A stretch of DNA of 46,675 nucleotides from Candidatus Saccharibacteria bacterium QS_5_54_17 (GTDB lineage Bacteria; Patescibacteriota; Saccharimonadia; QS-5-54-17): contig PXOU01000014.1 in the NCBI GenBank assembly GCA_003022365.1, positions 1-46,675 of the forward strand, read 5' to 3'. The notes under the pieces were generated by a model. The model made no database searches and was not told the origin of the DNA. It worked only from the letters and a program-made list of their open reading frames with translations. Shown piece by piece: positions 9,527 through 44,778 of this stretch (positions are counted from its first letter, which is position 1; each line of letters begins with the position of its first letter). Made by a program: the position numbers and the translations under genes.

Positions 9527-9603
9527 CGGGGATTGGCGCAGCCAGGTAGCGCGCCTGCTTTGGGAGCAGGAGGTCGCCGGTTCAAATCCGGCATCCCCGA
9601 CCA
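9527..9603 (+). tRNA. tRNA-Pro(TGG), CCA encoded
   Basis: CGGGGAT/ATCCCCG acceptor stem, anticodon loop TTTGGGA, T-arm GCCGGTTCAAATCCGGC, CCA at 9601-9603. Confidence 0.96.
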
Positions 9604-9799
9604 GGAAATTTACGACTGTCGCTAGGTGGTCGTAAATTTCTGAGTCAGTGGCAGCTGACATTTGAACCGGATATTTTGCGAAGCAAAATCGGTTCAGGCG
9701 CCAAGGAGCAGCGCGCACCCGTGCCTTGCAAGGCACGGGGAGCACTGCGACTGCGCATCGCCCGCCGTCAGGCGGGCACTTATCCGGCATCCCCGACCA
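9586..9799 (+). mobile_element. Unrecognised tRNA-3'-end-associated structured element, copy E1, with flanking 18-bp direct repeats
   Basis: ATCCGGCATCCCCGACCA at 9586-9603 and 9782-9799. Between them are several hairpins and blocks shared with the element at 44582-44778. Confidence 0.75.
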
Positions 9800-44277: not shown

Positions 44278-44336
44278 GGGCCTGTAGCTTAGGTTGGTTA
44301 GAGCAACGGCCTCTTAAGCCGTGCGCCGTGGGTTCG
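44278..44336 (+). pseudogene. Truncated tRNA-Lys(CTT) (5' portion through T-loop TTCG)
   Basis: GGGCCTGTAGCTTAGGTTGGTTAGAGCAACGGCCTCTTAAGCCGTGCGCCGTGGGTTCG nearly matches 44523-44580, then diverges; no 3' acceptor strand. Confidence 0.9.
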
Positions 44337-44522: not shown

Positions 44523-44599
44523 GGGCCTGTAGCTCAGTTGGTTAGAGCAACGGCCTCTTAAGCCGTGCGCCGTGGGTTCGAATCCCACCAGGCCCTCCA
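44523..44599 (+). tRNA. tRNA-Lys(CTT), CCA encoded
   Basis: GGGCCTGTAGCTCAGTTGGTTAGAGCAACGGCCTCTTAAGCCGTGCGCCGTGGGTTCGAATCCCACCAGGCCCTCCA. Confidence 0.96.
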
Positions 44600-44778
44600 T
44601 GAAAGAACCCGGTCTTTGCGCCGGGTTCTTTCATGGAAATCGTGTATTCGAACCCACCAAGTGCGAAGCACGGTTCGGGCGCCAAGGAATAGCGCGCAGG
44701 AACTACCTCTTAGTTTCGAGCACTATGACTGCGCATCGGCCGCCGTAGGCGGCCACTTATCCCACCAGGCCCTCCATG
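44582..44778 (+). mobile_element. Unrecognised tRNA-3'-end-associated structured element, copy E2, with flanking 20-bp direct repeats
   Basis: ATCCCACCAGGCCCTCCATG at 44582-44601 and 44759-44778. Interior shares two conserved blocks and the hairpin order with 9586-9799. Confidence 0.78.

Follow-up and report, generated by a model that had tools for sequence, protein, structure and literature searches.

The closest precedent for the element described here is provided by the ssrA islands of Dehalococcoides. According to their published description (PMC3146451), these islands carry the large serine recombinase DsiB at attL, where the 3' end of its gene overlaps the attachment site, a copy of about 20 bp of the RNA-gene 3' end lies at the far end, and islands may stand in tandem; those lacking an integration module were read there as cis-mobilizable elements. 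Such elements (CIMEs) are derived from ICEs or IMEs, keep attL and attR while their integrase and transfer genes are lost, and lie in tandem with related elements (PMC5704250). Here we describe an element, E2, that follows a tRNA-Lys gene in the genome of a tiny and parasitic member of the Saccharibacteria, together with its relatives across that class. With a probability of roughly three in four, E2 is a minimal, ORF-less, CIME-like and non-autonomous derivative of the large-serine-recombinase islands of Saccharibacteria.

The window, which is the whole stretch of DNA that was analysed, comprises 46,675 nucleotides of an 816-kb genome of the Saccharibacteria (TM7) class that is 90% complete (G000). 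The host of E2 is an intact tRNA-Lys with anticodon CTT at 44523-44599 (ARAGORN; Rfam tRNA, 74 bits), and this gene and all features of E2 and E1 given below lie on the + strand. As the earlier note had claimed, 20-bp direct repeats bracket the element: ATCCCACCAGGCCCTCCATG is found in exact copies at 44582-44601 and 44759-44778, 177 bp apart, and consists of the last 18 nt of the tRNA plus TG. The left copy covers the 3' side of the T-loop, the 3' strands of the T-stem and acceptor, CCA and TG; the part of the tRNA 3' from the T-loop is read as the left junction (attL), with the right copy on the attR side. Between the two copies there are 157 bp of hairpin-rich DNA, too short for an ORF-coded integrase or transfer gene, and the complete 197-bp stretch folds far better than its dinucleotide shuffles (DNA z = -5.3). 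With no gene between its repeats E2 is not an autonomous serine-recombinase island; as in a CIME, attL and attR flank the element and the target gene is left intact.

After the tRNA 3' end, the first unit of E2 is a terminator-like hairpin (44596-44637) with a perfect 17-bp stem (TCCATGAAAGAACCCGG, 44596-44612; CCGGGTTCTTTCATGGA, 44621-44637) in which the tRNA CCA pairs with TGG. This hairpin had been noticed before, and it is longer than was described because the stem takes in the tRNA's own CCA; its position and design are alike in nearly all relatives of E2. The supposed second copy of the T-loop (TTCGAACCCACCA) is for the most part the tRNA's T-arm 5' strand in reverse complement, a host-specific antisense copy of that strand and the loop (ATTCGAACCCAC, a 12-nt exact inverted repeat at 44646-44657). 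A sense copy does exist, but as GGTTCG at 44672-44677, within the T-arm 5' strand CGGTTCG (44671-44677) that stands immediately 5' of the core and is able to pair with 44648-44653. The small hairpin GTGC-GAA-GCAC (44661-44671) lies between the antisense and sense strands. The conserved core (44679-44736; covariance model 71.6 bits, with covariation) is made of a stem ATAG/CTAT, an internal loop CGCGCA/GAGCA and a hairpin GGAACT-ACCTCTT-AGTTTC, and is followed by a right hairpin GGCCGCC-GTA-GGCGGCC (44738-44754) whose sequence differs among relatives, by ACTT and by the second tRNA 3' end. The motifs GTGC-GAA-GCAC, GGCCGCC/GGCGGCC and CACTTAT listed in the earlier note were all found. With this order of parts, and with a sense strand that in some relatives is 12-15 nt of host sequence, the second copy amounts to an incomplete 3' half of the tRNA whose T-loop holds the core. 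A different insert is present nearby, where window positions 44278-44336 and the next ~60 bp hold a second, truncated copy of tRNA-Lys that breaks off at GGTTCG, and after it a different hairpin, GCCCTATCGGCTGATAGGGC, and GAATCC. On contig C13 (L055) two 21-bp 3' ends of tRNA-Ser(GGA) enclose a near-identical hairpin, and in G143 (L253) a similar one follows a tRNA-Leu; going by these sequences we regard such hairpins as a second, shorter family of T-loop inserts.

Within the window the blocks of E2 recur only at E1, at 9691-9717 (24 of 27 identical) and 9740-9760 (19 of 21), the same identities as had been reported, with zero matches expected from shuffles. E1 follows a tRNA-Pro(TGG) (9527-9603; ARAGORN) and is bounded by an 18-bp repeat of the tRNA-Pro 3' end, ATCCGGCATCCCCGACCA, at 9586-9603 and 9782-9799. 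Its interior (9604-9781) contains, by sequence and covariance model, a hairpin, an antisense T-arm ATTTGAACCGG and a core at 9698-9758, which has a different central hairpin, CCCGTGCCTTGCAAGGCACGGG, and scores 28.6 bits. A third copy, E3, is found at tRNA-Pro(GGG) on another contig of the same genome. E1 and E3 have about 110 bp in common with a single mismatch, and in each of them both 3'-end copies match its own tRNA.

To describe the family we built a covariance model of the core from eight copies and applied it to MAG assemblies. This gave about 115 matches in 58 of the 393 genomes of the Saccharibacteria class. A rebuilt model matched 9 of 380 genomes phylum-wide, seven of the nine within the class and the other two being fragmented assemblies, and three of four contigs found by pattern search were named Saccharibacteria. 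Viral contigs yielded one chance match inside a gene, and none for the long hairpin. Fifty-eight non-redundant copies lie 40-115 nt 3' of tRNAs of 17 amino-acid types, which bears out the earlier claim of a mobile element at unrelated tRNAs. A generic intergenic repeat, the reading that would have spoken against it, fails because the copies are overwhelmingly at tRNAs. Of the other copies some form the second unit of a tandem array (L010, L086, L093, L103), some lie at intron-bearing tRNAs (L071, L084), and some are in cargo islands or at contig ends. In one case (L016) the host is a nucleoside-diphosphate-kinase-like gene, named by eye from its translation; the copy lies at its 3' end, and the C-terminus of this gene is likewise duplicated. 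In the tRNA genes of L071 and L084, which the tRNA finder missed, group I introns apparently split the anticodon region; the group I introns of some host tRNAs were also considered as a source of the core, and by eye their sequence is unrelated.

The tRNA-derived parts of each copy are tailored to its host. The 3'-end copy matches its own host over a mean of 13.7 nt and other hosts over 5.2 nt, so that across the family the flanking repeat follows the host tRNA and not the element, as had been proposed for E2. The corresponding means are 7.4 and 5.6 nt for the antisense T-arm and 7.2 and 5.7 nt for the sense T-arm, and all three own-host values lie above every permutation. In some relatives (e.g. 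L069, L072, L101) the sense strand reaches 12-15 nt of host sequence, and the extreme is a tRNA-Gly(GCC) of G246 (L219) with a 19-nt exact antisense copy. This tRNA has an unusual T-loop, GTTAGAG in place of GTTCGAG, which is copied into both strands of its element. About ten of the 40 tRNAs detected in G246 have a trailer of this kind, counting a second core type, GGTTCGGTCGTTAGTCTG...CAGATTAACGTGCGCTGTCC, which occurs in a like tRNA context at Lys and Met tRNAs (L173, L181, L182, L222). At L128 and L100 the core lies upstream of the intact tRNA in a partial 5'-half tRNA copy, either in the anticodon loop (Met/Ile CAT) or near the D-loop (Ser GGA), and from their sequences we take these to be 5'-side versions of the same element. 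Nearest-neighbour cores share the amino-acid type in 12 cases against 4.6 expected (shuffle maximum 16) and the genome in 8 against 1.4. Such weak agreement points neither to strict tRNA lineages nor to purely local spread, and near-identical cores do occur at different tRNAs of related species (Asn and Lys in two species of genus g52).

Copies without an adjoining tRNA led to longer elements with cargo: 0.7 kb with a NADAR gene at tRNA-Lys (G023), 1.9 kb with DUF4386 at tRNA-Asn (G074) and 3 kb with NUDIX/NUDIX/PAS/GNAT at tRNA-Gln (G213). Islands of 4.6-18 kb have an intact tRNA at their start, a large serine recombinase next to it, and at their far end what we call the right-end module, consisting of terminator hairpin, antisense T-arm, T-arm strand, core and tRNA 3' copy. 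In G267 a tRNA-Glu(CTC) is directly followed by a 571-aa large serine recombinase; next come about 13 kb that include methyltransferase-like, NUDIX, GNAT-like and PLD-nuclease genes (named by eye where there was no Pfam test), and the far end holds the right-end module with a 3' copy that matches tRNA-Glu exactly. We searched 55 genomes for resolvase-family genes and inspected the 30 best loci. In 20 of these 30 a convergent tRNA (Ser, Glu, Arg, Leu, Met, Pro, Gln, Asn, Lys or Trp) stands at the 3' end of the recombinase gene, and in 19 of the 20 tRNA-adjoining loci the recombinase gene has its stop codon within or past the 3' end of the tRNA. Among 20 islands examined, the core module with a matching tRNA 3' copy ends a Leu island of 18.3 kb and a Pro island of 4.65 kb. 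A Glu island of 11.6 kb ends in a tRNA 3' copy and a core module seen by eye and not by the model, and an Asn island of 16.3 kb ends in the core module with a matching but short tRNA 3' copy beside it. The ends of the E2 module are therefore shared with recombinase-bearing islands of other species (G267 and further islands). An integrase next to the same hairpins, as envisaged earlier, thus exists in the family, but not in G000, where the 90% complete genome gave no match to the resolvase family PF00239; no resolvase-family gene was found either in G213, which has at least nine copies.

The recombinase C-terminus has a property of its own. In G267 (contig C6), L300, L301 and L308 the integrated frame ends inside the tRNA, while in the predicted circle it would be 15-63 residues longer and run through the antisense strand of the core. 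A possible consequence is an integration-dependent switch of the recombinase C-terminus, of the kind speculated for DsiB. Just 5' of the right-end module, L247, L248 and L249 show a recurring set of three genes, for an XRE-type helix-turn-helix protein, a protein of ~75 aa and a nuclease of the PLD or Mrr type (Pfam supports PLD and Mrr in L247 and L249, the other genes being named by eye); the set is possibly a defence module.

The Dehalococcoides islands thus resemble the Saccharibacteria islands in the recombinase/attL layout, the 3'-end copy and the tandem islands. The target differs, being one gene (tmRNA) in the former and many tRNAs in the latter, and the searched text of PMC3146451 shows no conserved hairpin core, antisense T-arm patch or ORF-less copies of ~180 bp. 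The CIMEs of PMC5704250 are decayed islands, whereas the small Saccharibacteria copies of about 160-200 bp have a conserved fold and so look maintained or mobile rather than like random remnants.

Filled and empty sites in one genus suggest that the element comes and goes, since a locus occupied in one species has orthologues elsewhere in the genus that lack the insert. The tRNA-Leu(TAA) locus, recognised by its shared tRNA-Cys/NUDIX neighbours, holds a tandem pair of units in G213 and is empty in G246 and G270. That of tRNA-Tyr(GTA) is filled in G213, where the ancestral terminator stem GACTTCTT.GGAAGTC now stands 3' of the second copy, and empty in G246, and that of tRNA-Lys(TTT) is filled with different cores in G213 and G246 and empty in G270. 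For E2 itself, synteny through the downstream folD-like gene gave best matches of 41-50% protein identity, relatives too divergent for this comparison. The family therefore shows the filled and empty sites (G213 against G246 and G270) expected of a CIME, and from comparison of these loci the small copies are probably mobile. The same sites bear on a reading without dedicated mobility, in which tRNA 3' ends were duplicated locally in tandem and later altered by gene conversion. E1 and E3 do look converted, and G000 has plain partial tRNA duplications, such as a tRNA-Glu(CTC) on contig C18 (L053) whose 3' part and trailer are duplicated in tandem, with a hairpin replacing the anticodon arm in the second copy. 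We give this reading very little credence, the least of those considered, in view of the empty sites, of one core that tRNAs of 17 amino-acid types share throughout the class and of islands in which the same ends enclose an integrase.

Conservation of the core is structural. In an alignment of 83 distinct rows fitted to the model, its two helices are 94% paired, against 72.5% when shuffled and 32-35% when slid by one column; a first, ungapped and hand-picked alignment gave the same covariation result. The outer helix changes on both sides in four of four pairs, and the hairpins near the junction differ in sequence among relatives. A conserved coding segment on the antisense strand of the core was rejected, because a central hairpin that varies from 12 to 19 nt shifts the frame. 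Another reading is that the element is an immobile structured RNA trailer of tRNA genes, a regulatory RNA or ribozyme in which the antisense T-arm and second 3' end give an alternative tRNA fold. The covarying stems do include G-U pairs, and when tRNA and element are folded as one RNA the T-arm pairs with the antisense copy and the acceptor with the second copy (z = -8.1). Against this stand the presence and absence between close relatives, the terminator-like hairpin directly 3' of the tRNA, the copy at the nucleoside-diphosphate-kinase-like gene and the same module on islands. The core also has no Rfam family, searches at gathering and relaxed thresholds matching only the tRNA, and we judge an RNA role very improbable. 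By this fold the tRNA would be re-paired in a read-through transcript, a possible reason for the nearly constant presence of the terminator-like hairpin.

If E2 is a derivative of the serine-recombinase islands, its movement can be pictured as follows. A circle in which the T-arm 5' strand and core are joined to the T-arm 3' strand, acceptor and CCA would recombine with the T-loop of a tRNA gene, with the crossover probably at GGTTCGA|ATCC. The tRNA on the upstream side would be completed by the incoming 3' end, while that of the host, now displaced, would stay 3' of the core as the second copy. In autonomous relatives these two ends enclose the recombinase gene and cargo, and their recombinase would presumably move the small copies in trans, or did so before the islands were lost. 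The folded core would then be a cis-acting recombination or transfer site, and not an RNA. The small form may have arisen by deletion between the full copy at the tRNA and an incomplete one situated just before the terminator hairpin of the island; an incomplete tRNA 3' end of this kind is seen in G267 (GGTGAGGTCACCA).

A difficulty for this scheme is that E1 and E3 have near-identical interiors and yet own-host tRNA copies. Conservative recombination alone does not re-tailor internal T-arm patches, so a further step such as gene conversion has to be assumed; if it acted between elements, it would be a modest answer to near-identical cores at different tRNAs with own-host patches. A bolder and rather doubtful proposal is that the right-end module is a new kind of folded attachment site, in which the antisense/sense T-arm pair rebuilds the target and the covarying core is extruded exactly at the crossover. 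If true, a single core lineage could pass from tRNA to tRNA, reaching nearly all of them, by exchanging tRNA-derived patches, and the folded site would amount to a re-targetable system of site-specific recombination with gene-bearing and gene-free cassettes.

Tailored patches also raise the question of a distinct hairpin-recognising system, similar to integron attC recombination or to single-strand transposition, whose substrate is the folded strand. Here the core would be extruded at the T-loop, the paired antisense and sense T-arm strands would mimic the tRNA gene, and an enzyme other than the serine recombinase would re-copy host tRNA sequence at each move. The family resembles integron cassettes in having a folded, structure-conserved site, arrays and cassette-like cargo (GNAT, NUDIX, NADAR) in its longer forms; the sequence-variable junction hairpins, the host-tailored antisense and sense T-arm strands and copy-rich genomes without a serine recombinase fit such a system as well. 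It differs from integrons in the T-loop insertion and the tRNA-tailored sequence. A PF00589 search of 52 genomes found no integron integrase and no second recombinase, but a single Xer-like tyrosine recombinase in 45 of them whatever the copy number, and since genomes with and without copies are alike in this we rejected the tyrosine recombinase as the mover. Reverse transcriptases, also rejected, are absent from most carriers. The right-end module is moreover common to the serine-recombinase islands, and we hold a separate hairpin system to be improbable. E2-type copies also recall MITEs in being short, gene-free, multi-copy and presumably moved in trans. Unlike MITEs, E2 has only internal hairpins and no terminal inverted repeats, its insertion is site-specific, and its 18-20-bp repeats are tRNA 3' ends and not arbitrary target duplications.

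Our preferred reading therefore remains that of a minimal derivative of the serine-recombinase islands. Among open-licence papers on Saccharibacteria with serine recombinases or integrative elements we found no description of the E2 family, which is apparently undescribed. Relative to its precedents, what is new is the extreme size, the folded conserved core, the host-tailored T-arm patches and the class-wide spread. The core model can serve as a search tool for islands and their exact ends in a class that is hard to culture, and the family is a source of serine recombinases whose tRNA targets are defined. A question that it raises is how an attachment site keeps patches that match whichever tRNA it has occupied. 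The genomes of Saccharibacteria are very small, and yet a mobile family has spread in them over tRNAs of 17 amino-acid types, bringing NADAR, GNAT, NUDIX and nuclease genes as cargo.
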